Shown here in pieces: positions 45,483 to 52,092 of a stretch of DNA of 64,000 nucleotides. Every line of letters begins with the position of its first letter. Position 1 is the first letter of the stretch. The notes beneath the pieces were generated by a model. The model searched no databases and was not told the origin of the DNA. It saw nothing but the letters and a program-made list of their open reading frames with translations. The DNA comes from a bacterium. Its GTDB lineage: Bacteria > CAIWAD01. The translations under genes and the position numbers were made by a program. The stretch covers positions 1 to 64,000 of the forward strand of contig JAUXWS010000041.1 of assembly GCA_030685015.1 (NCBI GenBank), written 5' to 3'.

Positions 45483-45619
45483 CCCAGGGTTGGCCCTTCG
45501 TTCTCACGCAGACCCTTGGACTGGAGACAACCCTGGGACAGAGAGACATCCCGTACCGGGATGTCCACCCCTCAGGGGTGGTTGCTTGGTGCCAGGGTCG
45601 GCCGCAGGCCCACCCTGGC
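45483..45619. repeat. REP-like hairpin cluster upstream of the transposase
   Basis: Four perfect inverted repeats lie in 137 bp: CCCAGGGT/ACCCTGGG (45483-45490 with 45530-45537), GACATCCCG-TAC-CGGGATGTC (45545-45565), CCACCCCT-C-AGGGGTGG (45565-45581) and GCCAGGGT/ACCCTGGC (45591-45598 with 45612-45619). The first two recur, with the same order and spacing, at 56299-56388. They end 20 bp before the IS200-like transposase gene, as REP substrates commonly do. The surrounding 45325-45638 holds no gene. Confidence 0.75.
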
Positions 45620-45638
45620 GCACATGCAAGGAGACGAG

Positions 45639-46094
45639 ATGCCTCAATCGCTTGCCGCCACCTATCTGCACTTGCTCTTTTCCACCAAGTGTTGCCAGCC
45701 CTTTCTCCAGGACGTGGAAACCCGCCAGGCCACCCATCGTTTCCTGCGCGGCATGTCCCGGCGGCTGGGATGCCCCGTTCTTGCCGTGGGCGGCGCGGCT
45801 GACCACGTCCATCTGCTGTCCCGCTTCAGCCGCGTCATCAGCCAGGCGGATTGGGTCAAGGAGTTGAAGCGCTGCTCCCATCTTTGGCTGGTGGACCGCC
45901 AATTGGTGCAGCGCGGATTCGCTTGGCAGAACGGCTACCTCAGCTTCTCCGTCAGCCACTCCCGGCTTGAGGATGTCCGCGCCTTCCTTCGCGGACAGGA
46001 GGCCCGCCACCGCAATCAGGGCTTCCAGGAGGAGGCACGCCGCTTGTTGATCCTGCACGACATGCGCTGGGACGAGCGCTTCCTCTGGGATTGA
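45639..46094 (+). CDS. REP-associated tyrosine transposase (RAYT, Y1 family)
   Basis: 151 residues of the IS200/TnpA fold. The HUH metal-binding pair is in AADHVHLL and the nucleophilic Tyr in WQNGYLSFSVS. It is a single-copy, non-IS gene in this window, with hairpin repeats immediately upstream, the arrangement of RAYT genes thought to move REP elements. AGGAGA precedes the ATG. Everything needed for catalysis looks intact. Confidence 0.85.
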   Translation: MPQSLAATYLHLLFSTKCCQPFLQDVETRQATHRFLRGMSRRLGCPVLAVGGAADHVHLLSRFSRVISQADWVKELKRCSHLWLVDRQLVQRGFAWQNGYLSFSVSHSRLEDVRAFLRGQEARHRNQGFQEEARRLLILHDMRWDERFLWD

Positions 46095-46178: not shown

Positions 46179-47732
46179 ATGGATCGTGATCTGGCCTCCA
46201 TCCAGGAAGTCCGGGAGATGTTGACGGCAGCCCGTGCCGCCGCCGACCAGTTCAAGCACTTCAGCCAGGACCAGGTGGACCGCGTCGTCCAGGCGATGGC
46301 GACGGCCGCGCTGAACAACGCCAAGCGCCTGGCCCGCATGGCCCACGAGGAAACGGGCTTCGGCCGCATCGAGGACAAGACGACCAAGAACGTCTTCTGC
46401 TCGAAGAACCTGATGGACTACGTGGGGCCGCTGAGAACCTGTGGCGTCATCGCCCACGACGAGCGGCGGCGCATCCACGAGATCGCCGTGCCCATGGGCA
46501 TCGTGGCGGCACTCATTCCCTGCACCAATCCCACCTCGACGGCCATCTTCAAGTCGATCATCTCGCTGAAGAGCCGCAACGCCATTGTGATGAGTCCGCA
46601 CCCCAAGGCCCGGGGCTGCATCCTGGAGACCACCCGCCTGCTGCACGACGCCGCCAGCGCCGTGGGCGCGCCGCGCAGCCTGGTCCAATGCATGACCCTG
46701 CCCACCCTGGATGGTACCCAGGAGCTGATGCGCCACAAGCTCACCAGCGTCATCCTGGCCACCGGCGGCAGCGACATGGTGCGGGCCGCCTACAGCGCCG
46801 GCAAGCCCGCCTACGGCGTGGGTCCGGGCAACGTGCCGGCCTATGTGGATCGCACGGCGGACGTGGGCAAGGCGGCGCGCGACATCGTGGCCGGCAAGAG
46901 CTTCGATTGGGGCACCGTCTGCGCCAGCGAGCAGAGTGTGGTGGCGGACCGGCCCATTGCCGGCAAGCTGATGGAGGAGATGCGCCGGGCGGGCGCCCAC
47001 TTCTGCACAGCCGAGGAGAAGGCCAAACTGCAGGCCGTGATGGTGGACAAACGCGGCAAGATCAACGCCGAGATCGTGGGGCGCAGCCCGCAACACATCG
47101 GCGGCCTGGCCGGGATCAAGGTGCCGCCCGCCGTGCGCGCCCTGGTCGTCCTGCTGGACGAGGTGGGCGTGAAGGATCCCCTCTCCTGCGAGAAGCTCAG
47201 CCCCGTGCTTGGCTTCTACGTGGTGGACGGCTGGAAGTCCGGCTGCGACCTCAGCGTGCGCATCCTCGAGTACGGCGGCGTGGGGCACACCTTCGCCATC
47301 CACTGCCTGGATCCCGACATCGTGATGGAGTTCGGACTGCACAAGCCGGCCTTCCGCATCATCGTCAACTCGCCGGCCACCCACGGCGCCATCGGCTACA
47401 CGACCGGCCTGACACCCAGCATGACCCTGGGTCCGGGCACCTGGGGCGGCAGCATCACCAGCGACAACGTGGGGCCGCTCAACCTCGTCAACATCAAGCG
47501 CGTCGCCTGGGAGACCAATCCCCTGGAGGGCGCCACCCCGGGCGCCGCCACCAAGTGGGGTTACGACGAGCAATACCGCTACCGGCCCAGGGAGGAGGTC
47601 GCCCGGGCCAACGCCGAGAAGGCCGCCGGTGCAACGACAACCACCGCTTCGCGCACCGAAGCGCCCCAGTACGGCAAAAGCGGGATGAGCGACGAGGAGA
47701 TCGACCGCATCGTCAAGGAATTCAAGGGCTGA
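46179..47732 (+). CDS. CoA-acylating aldehyde dehydrogenase (EutE/PduP type)
   Basis: 517 residues. Catalytic Cys in GTVCASEQSV; cofactor-binding segment IPCTNPTSTAIFKSI and a GVGPGNVPAYVD loop match aldehyde dehydrogenases that form acyl-CoA in bacterial microcompartments. The C-terminus carries a Thr/Ala-rich linker and a short amphipathic helix (MSDEEIDRIVKEFKG), which looks like an encapsulation peptide. It is followed eight bases later by a PduL homologue, the usual partner. No shell-protein gene is in the window. Confidence 0.85.
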   Translation: MDRDLASIQEVREMLTAARAAADQFKHFSQDQVDRVVQAMATAALNNAKRLARMAHEETGFGRIEDKTTKNVFCSKNLMDYVGPLRTCGVIAHDERRRIHEIAVPMGIVAALIPCTNPTSTAIFKSIISLKSRNAIVMSPHPKARGCILETTRLLHDAASAVGAPRSLVQCMTLPTLDGTQELMRHKLTSVILATGGSDMVRAAYSAGKPAYGVGPGNVPAYVDRTADVGKAARDIVAGKSFDWGTVCASEQSVVADRPIAGKLMEEMRRAGAHFCTAEEKAKLQAVMVDKRGKINAEIVGRSPQHIGGLAGIKVPPAVRALVVLLDEVGVKDPLSCEKLSPVLGFYVVDGWKSGCDLSVRILEYGGVGHTFAIHCLDPDIVMEFGLHKPAFRIIVNSPATHGAIGYTTGLTPSMTLGPGTWGGSITSDNVGPLNLVNIKRVAWETNPLEGATPGAATKWGYDEQYRYRPREEVARANAEKAAGATTTTASRTEAPQYGKSGMSDEEIDRIVKEFKG

Positions 47733-47739
47733 TCAGCCG

Positions 47740-48513
47740 GTGAGCCTCCACCCCCGCATCCGCGTCATCGGCCCGCGGGCCTTTCTTGGCCGGGAGCACG
47801 TCGTCCGGCTCTTCGGAGAGGACGCCCGGCTGGAGTTCGCAGCGTCGCTGGGTTTGCAGGCGGGCTTCCTGGCGCGGCAGGAAGTGGCCGCCGCCACGGC
47901 GCTGGGTCGCCTGTCCGGCATTCCCGTGGTGGGACCTCCCCAGGAGCCGGCCCGCCTGGAGTGCCCGCTGGGACTGGCGCGCCAGCTTGGCCTGGAACCG
48001 CCGGTGCGCCACAGCGGGGACGTGGAGGGCGCGCCCCGTGTCACCCTCATCGGACCGTGCGGCCACCTGGAGCTGGCGCAAGGCGTGATCAGCCTGACGC
48101 GCCGTCTGGAGTGCTCAGCGGACAACGCCCGGCGTCTGGGCCTGCTGGATGGCGATCGCGTGGTTTGCGCCGTGCGCAGCCACCAGCGGACGGATCTGCG
48201 GGAGGCCGTGCGCGATGGCATCCTGGGCGAAGTCTTCGTGCGCGTCTCCGCCGACTACGATCTGGAACTCCATCTGGATACGGACGATGCCACAGCCCTT
48301 CGCATACAGGATGGCGACATGGCCCGCTTGCTGACAGCCGGGCGCAGCGGCCAGGGACCCGGCCATCTGCCGGTGGGGCGCCTGGTGGGCGAGGCCGAGG
48401 TGCGCGCCGCCCGGGAACAGGGCCTGCGCATCCGGGTCGTCCGCGGCATGCTGCTCACCCCCTCCGCCCGCGACCTGGGCCGTGCCTGGGACCTGCTGGA
48501 CCTGGAGGAGTGA
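47740..48513 (+). CDS. Divergent PduL-like phosphotransacylase lacking zinc ligands
   Basis: 257 residues, GTG start. The overall PduL layout is visible: an N-terminal motif region ending LFG, a central VTLIGPCG strand, SADNARRLGLLDGD, and ELHLDTDDATAL near residue 178. In PduL each half has an R-H-(V/I)-H motif binding zinc. Here the first is P12-R-A-F15 and the second R121-R-L-E124, so four metal His residues are gone; His178 and a Glu at 48 remain. A classical PduL would convert acyl-CoA to acyl-phosphate. This one is probably inactive or altered. Confidence 0.7.
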   Translation: MSLHPRIRVIGPRAFLGREHVVRLFGEDARLEFAASLGLQAGFLARQEVAAATALGRLSGIPVVGPPQEPARLECPLGLARQLGLEPPVRHSGDVEGAPRVTLIGPCGHLELAQGVISLTRRLECSADNARRLGLLDGDRVVCAVRSHQRTDLREAVRDGILGEVFVRVSADYDLELHLDTDDATALRIQDGDMARLLTAGRSGQGPGHLPVGRLVGEAEVRAAREQGLRIRVVRGMLLTPSARDLGRAWDLLDLEE

Positions 48514-50724: not shown

Positions 50725-52092
50725 ATGACTCGCCGCCACATCGGCATCCTGCATCCCGGCGCCATGGGAATCTCGCTGGCCGCCGCCGCCCGGAGGAACG
50801 GGCATGTTGTCCACTGGGTGTCGGCGGGACGCGGCCCACGTACACGGGAACGGGCGGAGGCCCACGGCCTGGTCGAACATGGGAGCCTGGAGCAGCTCGG
50901 CGCGGCCTGCCAGCTGATCATCAGTGGTTGCCCGCCCCACGCCGCCGCAGAAGTGGCGGAGGCGGTGCGCGCCACGTCCTTCCGCGGCCTCTACGCGGAT
51001 TGCAATGCCATCTCGCCCGAGCGGGCCAGACAGATCGGGCGACGGATGGCAGAGGCGGGCATCGCCTTCGTGGATGGCGGCATCATCGGTGGTCCCGCCT
51101 GGGAGCCCGGCGCCACGTGGCTCTACCTGTCCGGGGCGGCCGCTGCGGACGTGGCGGACTGCTTCGCCGCCGGACCCCTGGAGTGCGAGGTGATCGGACC
51201 GGAGCCCGGCCGCGCCTCCGCCCTCAAGATGTGCTACGCCGCCAATACCAAAGGCGGGACAGCCCTGCTTTGCGCCGTGGTCGCGGCGGCCGAGGCGCTG
51301 GGTGTGCGGCGCGAGCTGGAGGCGCAATGGACGCGGGAGCAGCCGGACAGCCCGACGCGCATCCACCAGCGACTCCGGCGTGTCACGGGCAAGGCCTGGC
51401 GCTTCGCGGGGGAGATGGAGGAGATCGCCGCCACCTTCACGGCGGCCGGATTGCCCGGCGGTTTCCACGAGGCCGCCGCCGAGCTCTACCAACGTCTCGC
51501 CCCCTTCAAGGAGGCCGCCGAGCCGCCCGCCCTGGAGGCCGTGTTGCATGTCCTGAAAGGATGTGGGACTGAGGAGGCGGGGCGTTGCGGCGGGGTTCTG
51601 CGCGTGGTCCGCGGCGACATCACGACCCTGGCGGTGGACGCCATCGTCAACGCCGCCAACATCCTGCTGCTGGGCGGCGGCGGCGTGGACGGGGCGATCC
51701 ATCGCGCCGCCGGACCGCAGCTGCTGGAGGAGTGCCGTCTGCTGGGCGGATGCGAGACGGGCGAGGCGAGGGTCACTTACGGCTACAACCTGCCCTGCCA
51801 CTTGGTGATCCACACGGTGGGCCCTGTCTGGCAGGGCGGCGACGCCGGCGAGGCGGCCTTGCTCTCTGCCTGCTACCGCAACAGCATCGAAGTGGCCGCT
51901 CTCACCGGGGTGCGCCGCCTGGCCTTCCCATGCATCAGCACGGGGGTCTTCAGCTATCCGCACGAACCGGCGGCCCGCATCGCCGTGGAGAGTGCGCGCC
52001 GGTCGCAGCGGGAGTTCCCCGCCGTGAGCGAGATCATCTTCTGCTGTTACTCGGACGAAGACGAAGAGATCTACCGCCGCCTGCTCGAATGA
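50725..52092 (+). CDS. Fusion of an NAD-binding DUF1932 oxidoreductase and a macrodomain
   Basis: 455 residues. Residues 1-165 are a 6-phosphogluconate-dehydrogenase-like NAD(P) fold (G7, G12, G15 in IGILHPGAMGISLA; ADCNAISPERA). Residues 168-275 match the DUF1932 helical domain (ALKMCYAANTKGGTALL). Residues 288-455 are a MacroD-type macrodomain: VVRGDITTLAVDAIVNAAN, LLGGGGVDGAIHRAAGP, HTVGPVW and STGVFSYP. Macrodomains of this group remove ADP-ribose or hydrolyse O-acetyl-ADP-ribose. GGAGG precedes the single start and there is no internal ribosome site, so one fused polypeptide is expected. The pairing is not one I know as standard. Confidence 0.85.
   Translation: MTRRHIGILHPGAMGISLAAAARRNGHVVHWVSAGRGPRTRERAEAHGLVEHGSLEQLGAACQLIISGCPPHAAAEVAEAVRATSFRGLYADCNAISPERARQIGRRMAEAGIAFVDGGIIGGPAWEPGATWLYLSGAAAADVADCFAAGPLECEVIGPEPGRASALKMCYAANTKGGTALLCAVVAAAEALGVRRELEAQWTREQPDSPTRIHQRLRRVTGKAWRFAGEMEEIAATFTAAGLPGGFHEAAAELYQRLAPFKEAAEPPALEAVLHVLKGCGTEEAGRCGGVLRVVRGDITTLAVDAIVNAANILLLGGGGVDGAIHRAAGPQLLEECRLLGGCETGEARVTYGYNLPCHLVIHTVGPVWQGGDAGEAALLSACYRNSIEVAALTGVRRLAFPCISTGVFSYPHEPAARIAVESARRSQREFPAVSEIIFCCYSDEDEEIYRRLLE

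Follow-up and report, generated by a model that had tools for sequence, protein, structure and literature searches.

The window, a stretch of 64,000 nucleotides (positions 1 to 64,000 of contig JAUXWS010000041.1, C41 of genome G000, assembly GCA_030685015.1), contains on its forward strand an aldehyde dehydrogenase gene (46179–47732) and, seven bases past its stop codon, an open reading frame for a PduL-like protein (47740–48513, 257 amino acids, GTG start, third-position GC content 0.85). The dehydrogenase, 517 amino acids long, matches the acylating (CoA-forming) acetaldehyde dehydrogenase family TIGR02518 (E-value 4.7e-180; its 599.6 bits lie under the cut-off of 620.1) and the family Aldedh (PF00171), and contains the catalytic-cysteine motif VCASEQ. 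It ends in an encapsulation-peptide-like tail (MSDEEIDRIVKEFKG, 47685–47729, forward strand), which resembles the amino-terminus of a DeoC aldolase encoded at locus L068 and for which we infer a targeting role. A gene for an IS200-like transposase (Y1_Tnp in Pfam, 45516–46094) is located just 5' of the dehydrogenase gene. At 50725–52092, a single long frame presumably encodes a dehydrogenase-like amino-terminal part (GILHPGAMGISLAAAA) joined to a macro-domain-like carboxy-terminal part (IVNAANILLLGGGGVDGAIH), possibly a fusion.

The PduL-like protein, a putative pseudoenzyme, matches the Pfam family PF06130 (PTAC) with an E-value of 8.9e-32 and 110.7 bits, against a cut-off of 25; with NF011652 (phosphate propanoyltransferase) it scores 114 bits, below the NCBIfam cut-off of 209. 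G000, which is 97% complete, encodes no other PF06130 protein, and a second, intact PduL elsewhere in this genome was thereby ruled out. Four relatives, at the genus, family and class level, likewise have one PF06130 copy each, adjoining an aldehyde dehydrogenase gene. The pairing with an acyl-CoA-forming aldehyde dehydrogenase, to which the preliminary description of the locus had drawn attention, thus recurs in all five genomes of the class.

The only solved sequence matching the PduL-like protein is that of R. palustris PduL (PDB entry 5cuo, E-value 5.5e-19). An AlphaFold2 model of the monomer (m0205c2003058), calculated with an alignment of 50 sequences from which L088, L101 and L102 (stops within the match) and others, for reasons of size, were excluded, has a mean pLDDT of 92.3. 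Foldseek places 5cuo as the top match of the model, with a TM-score of 0.93–0.94 by target length and 28% sequence identity, and VIA-align superposes the model onto 5cuo chain A with a Z-score of 27.2 and an r.m.s.d. of 1.2, with all 188 of the 188 solved residues aligned. The matches below 5cuo are mostly p97/Cdc48 N-domains, with Z-scores of about 8–9 over about 80 residues, reflecting a common barrel fold. Together with the PF06130 match, the model bears out the earlier claim that the scaffold is retained, and the double-barrel PduL scaffold is predicted to be complete.

According to the extract of PMC4784909 used here, R. palustris PduL binds Zn1 through H48, H50 and E109 and Zn2 through H157, H159 and H204, ligands which it describes as absolutely conserved; phosphate is held by R103 and S127, and the CoA contacts in 5cuo are S45, K70, R97, L99, H204 and N211. 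When the PduL-like protein is aligned to 5cuo, the six ligand positions are occupied by R13, F15, E74, R122, E124 and H178 (RFEREH), so that two of the six are kept and four are lost (H48R, H50F, H157R and H159E). The residues P12-R13-A14-F15 (47773–47784, forward strand, as for all codons given here) replace the first R-H-x-H motif (R47-H48-x-H50), and R121-R122-L123-E124 (48100–48111) replace the second (R156-H157-x-H159), exactly as first described. That description had confined the losses to these two motifs; both are indeed gone, but A35, L39, G42, P62, Q68, R72 and T185 also replace K70, Q74, Q77, R97, R103, Q107 and N211. The equivalent of S127, a phosphate contact, is kept. P62 (47923–47925), in the place of the CoA-contacting R97, is a proline in all five class members and also in G258, a genome of another lineage, and Q68 (47941–47943) occupies the position of the phosphate-contacting R103, which is replaced in all five. 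Of the two retained zinc ligands, E74 (47959–47961, equivalent to E109) is a glutamate in four of the five class members and a valine in the class relative G004, while H178 (48271–48273, equivalent to H204) is a histidine in four of the five. The third histidine, said to remain, is therefore present in the window protein, but it is a leucine in G002, of the same genus.

One alternative is that the protein senses a ligand and regulates the aldehyde dehydrogenase, with CoA or acyl-CoA bound in the old pocket. The adjacency of the two genes in five of five genomes and the retained PduL fold would suit such a regulator, but the residues that the extract of PMC4784909 lists as CoA contacts in 5cuo have mostly been replaced, and we regard a sensing role as doubtful.

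The same loss was sought in the genomes of the relatives and is present in three of the four. Where the canonical ligand columns read HHEHHH, those of the window protein read RFEREH, of G001 RFERAH, of G002 RFERAL, of G003 RFERCH and of G004 HRVHHH; G004, the fourth relative, has lost the Zn1 site only. In 4/4 members of the window's family, column 48 is R, column 50 is F and column 157 is R (the first two being H and R in G004), while column 159 drifts (E, A, A and C in the four members, H in G004). No substitute set of histidines emerges from the alignment of the window protein with its four relatives: no histidine or cysteine is invariant over the five, by which a shifted alignment masking histidine residues was ruled out. 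A normal PduL with other metal ligands could still use the retained equivalents of E109 and H204 in the window protein; given the lack of an invariant histidine or cysteine in the five sequences, the leucine at the H204 position in G002 and the variable residue at that of H159, we consider this highly improbable.

The losses are concentrated in the active site. Of the columns that are conserved to at least 90% across 59 canonical loci, 13 belong to the active site (as named in the extract of PMC4784909) and 19 do not; the window protein keeps 4/13 of the former and 17/19 of the latter (Fisher p 0.0016). The same test gives p-values of 0.0009 for G001, 0.00004 for G002, 0.0009 for G003 and 0.005 for G113, another divergent homologue, the five class members being kin and not independent of each other. 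For G004 (p 0.28) and G258 (p 0.24), active-site loss is not significantly above loss elsewhere.

Among the four family members, dN/dS (NG86) is 0.17–0.40 for the PduL-like gene and 0.14–0.35 for the neighbouring aldehyde dehydrogenase gene, rough ratios because dS (0.70–1.25) is near saturation. A neutral reading frame of like composition would be expected to acquire about 10–15 nonsense changes over such a distance, and none is present. The PduL-like gene is under purifying selection. A sequencing error or broken gene was ruled out by the open frame in five separate assemblies and by dN/dS below 1. If the gene were decaying on its way out, this would account for its evolving faster than its neighbour (dN about 0.21–0.48 versus about 0.09–0.25) and for the loss of sites conserved elsewhere; however, the reading frame is intact in five of five genomes at a dS of about 1, with dN/dS well below 1, 17 of the 19 structural columns are kept and the fold is predicted with confidence, making such decay very unlikely.

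Both arginines, R13 and R122, are invariant in the four family members, as are E74 and S92. It is conceivable that these four residues replace the two zinc ions and bind phosphate or acyl phosphate metal-free, the protein still being an acyltransferase or hydrolase. Purifying selection and the pairing with a CoA-acylating dehydrogenase agree with such chemistry, but the equivalents of R103, K70, R97, Q74, Q77, Q107 and N211 are lost, the arginines are absent in G004, G113 and G258, and E74 and S92 vary outside the family of the window. We judge retained chemistry to be unlikely, and the narrower proposal, that a metal-free site built around the conserved arginine pair handles phosphate or acyl phosphate within a compartment, quite unlikely.

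Microcompartment shell proteins are encoded in all five genomes, with matches to both PF00936 (BMC) and PF03319 (EutN_CcmL, BMC-P); G000 has four of each. Its shell genes are located on contigs C21, C99, C95, C74 and C36, apart from the contig of the window, and are scattered singly or in pairs (L065, L066, L067, L068, L069) rather than in a single locus. On C74, the DeoC aldolase gene (L068:559-1467; PF01791, E-value 1.3e-21) adjoins a BMC-P gene, and the amino-terminus of the aldolase (GDIVDRIVKEVLEQ) looks, by eye, like an encapsulation peptide (EP). On C99, a PduS-like protein (Complex1_51K, SLBB and RnfC_N domains) is followed by a tandem BMC-domain protein, and near two BMC-P genes on C95 a metalloenzyme-superfamily protein is encoded, judged by its sequence to be a phosphopentomutase. 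By motif, G003 likewise has the DeoC/BMC-P and PduS-like/BMC-T pairs. An EP-like DNA pattern has five matches in G000, against two for the reversed pattern: the aldehyde dehydrogenase, DeoC and three mid-frame matches that look like chance; in G003 it has eight (L175 inspected). Two PF02502 (RpiB-type) matches are present in G000, without a recognised encapsulation peptide.

SPU compartments are thought, in the extracts of PMC8217296 and PMC4207490 used here, to use DNA-derived deoxyribose phosphate via acetaldehyde and acetyl-CoA. Because of its BMC and BMC-P, DeoC and PduS-like genes, the genome fits a scattered SPU-like (DeoC-type) microcompartment, in which a phosphotransacylase is expected. 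The extract of PMC4207490 also records SPU loci that have no PduL, and metabolosomes whose cofactors are regained in "as yet unknown ways". An encapsulated Pta was considered as a substitute for PduL: all five genomes have a gene for a stand-alone Pta, but no encapsulation peptide was recognisable on Pta by eye, the frames inspected starting at the ordinary Pta amino-terminus. Acetate kinase was found in three of the five genomes; G004, one of the two negatives, is 67% complete.

Loss of the zinc ligands is rare among the PduL homologues examined and is not a matter of chance. A peptide-pattern scan of genome contigs found 269 relatives, of which 80 were kept (four from the clade and 76 others), and all 76 non-clade loci read HHEHHH, conservation that is partly built in over columns 202–210 and about 118–127, which the patterns covered; L088, L101 and L102, with stops in the match, are still counted among these loci. 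An independent PF06130 scan gave 69 matches in 68 of 386 genomes. Sixty-seven were examined, leaving out the short fragments G315 and G192:C314: 59 read HHEHHH, one is truncated (L231, HHEHH-, ending before H204) and seven are divergent, namely the five of the window's class, G113 (YQVHVR) and G258 (QREHHH). The G113 homologue (L205:7157-7957) and the G258 homologue (L206:3704-4381), both with lost zinc ligands, come from other lineages. That of G113 adjoins a BMC-P gene, with the gene of an EP-tailed acylating aldehyde dehydrogenase within 2 kb; that of G258 lies directly 3' of a gene for an EP-tailed acylating aldehyde dehydrogenase. Like G004, G258 retains the Zn2 ligands. Scans of the phyla around G113 (one of four genomes matched, G113 itself) and G258 (two of two matched) found no further divergent PduL, and around G124 ten of 14 genomes matched, all ten with the six ligands. 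We found no report of an inactive PduL in the open-licence PMC literature.

In a tree of the aldehyde dehydrogenases (calculated without the duplicate or partial rows L013, L248, L257, L249 and L255), G258 is sister to L089, which has a canonical PduL, with a support of 98/100, and the pseudo-PduL label needs three changes, two of them forced by starred branches. A single clade of all seven divergent loci is rejected on this tree (p-AU 0.00136), but a clade of G113 with the window's class is not (AU test, p 0.31); at least two independent losses of PduL ligands are therefore supported, and three only suggested. In the PduL protein tree, from which L207, L208 and L229 (duplicates) and L231 (truncated) were excluded, G113, G258 and G004 sit on long branches, and only one change is forced. 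Decay seems to have been stepwise, with the half of the site containing Zn1 and the CoA contacts going first (in G004 and, separately, in G258) and the Zn2 site following in the family of the window.

Beyond the barrels, the PduL-like protein contains a carboxy-terminal module (RLVGEAEV...LLTPSARDLG, residues 211–257, 48370–48510), predicted to form a helix-strand-helix-strand structure. The module is present in all five class members, in the G113 protein and in several canonical PduLs, and hence is no hallmark of the dead form; the G258 contig ends before it. The segment LITExDV...TPxARD is also located near the amino-terminus of EutQ-domain proteins, of a cobalamin adenosyltransferase and of a triosephosphate isomerase, all encoded in neighbouring microcompartment loci. 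Instances outside the window are L115:393-551, L102:10341-10493, L188:601-750 and L203:2852-3007. The module alone gave no Pfam match in three proteins, and a profile of it gave only short, chance-like matches to PDB sequences. From its distribution, the module may be one of general use in microcompartment association, through which a dead PduL could still join the core.

A pseudoenzyme is the best-supported reading of the PduL-like protein, which keeps an intact fold but has selectively lost its contacts to metal, CoA and phosphate; its gene adjoins an aldehyde dehydrogenase gene and evolves under purifying selection. Its inactivity is deduced from the replaced residues, and its job is probably non-catalytic. 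The preliminary description had left the choice between a structural pseudoenzyme, a regulatory one and another mechanism; fold, selective loss and selection speak for a pseudoenzyme, and among these options a structural role is favoured. On balance, we think that the protein is not a zinc phosphotransacylase but a catalytically dead PduL, retained in a non-catalytic role in a DeoC-type (sugar-phosphate/deoxyribose) microcompartment as an assembly or partner protein of its core. The protein would dimerise like PduL and be packaged together with the EP-tagged aldehyde dehydrogenase; by eye, it has no amino-terminal encapsulation peptide of its own, so this packaging would be indirect. The barrel surface and the carboxy-terminal module might then arrange the dehydrogenase within the core or link it to the shell. 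CoA could be released elsewhere, for instance by the untagged stand-alone Pta once acetyl-CoA exits the shell, or be exchanged through a CoA-permeable shell.

Judged by its sequence, the protein would be a pseudoenzyme variant within a known family and system, not to be filed as a phosphotransacylase, and the presence of PF06130 in a genome is no proof of a phosphotransacylase step. A sole PduL without its zinc ligands, together with a second, independent case, suggests that the chemistry of PduL is separable from a possible role of its scaffold in building the organelle. The recycling of CoA in metabolosomes without a working phosphotransacylase, raised in the extract of PMC4207490, becomes testable.

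The system in G000 resembles the SPU compartments, as outlined in the extracts of PMC8217296 and PMC4207490, in its EP-like DeoC-type aldolase, acylating aldehyde dehydrogenase, PduS-like protein and shell proteins, but its genes are spread across many contigs, an RpiB with an EP tag was not recognised and its PduL is degenerate. A parallel is offered by GRM1 loci, in which, according to the extract of PMC4207490, a second aldehyde dehydrogenase without the catalytic residue has been proposed as a scaffold or regulator. There too, a core enzyme homologue has lost its catalytic residue or residues; however, GRM1 keeps an intact second copy of the aldehyde dehydrogenase, whereas the apparently dead PduL of the window's genome is the only copy. 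With R. palustris PduL (5cuo and 5cup, as presented in the extract of PMC4784909), the protein shares the fold over 188 residues, an aldehyde dehydrogenase partner gene and a microcompartment context. It differs in being without four of the six zinc ligands, most of the CoA and phosphate contacts and the amino-terminal encapsulation peptide, and in having a carboxy-terminal extension of about 60 amino acids. Closest in architecture are the canonical, carboxy-terminally extended PduLs encoded beside EP-tailed acylating aldehyde dehydrogenases (for example L089, L143, L145 and G324), which have the same pairing and the same carboxy-terminal module, but retain all six zinc ligands.
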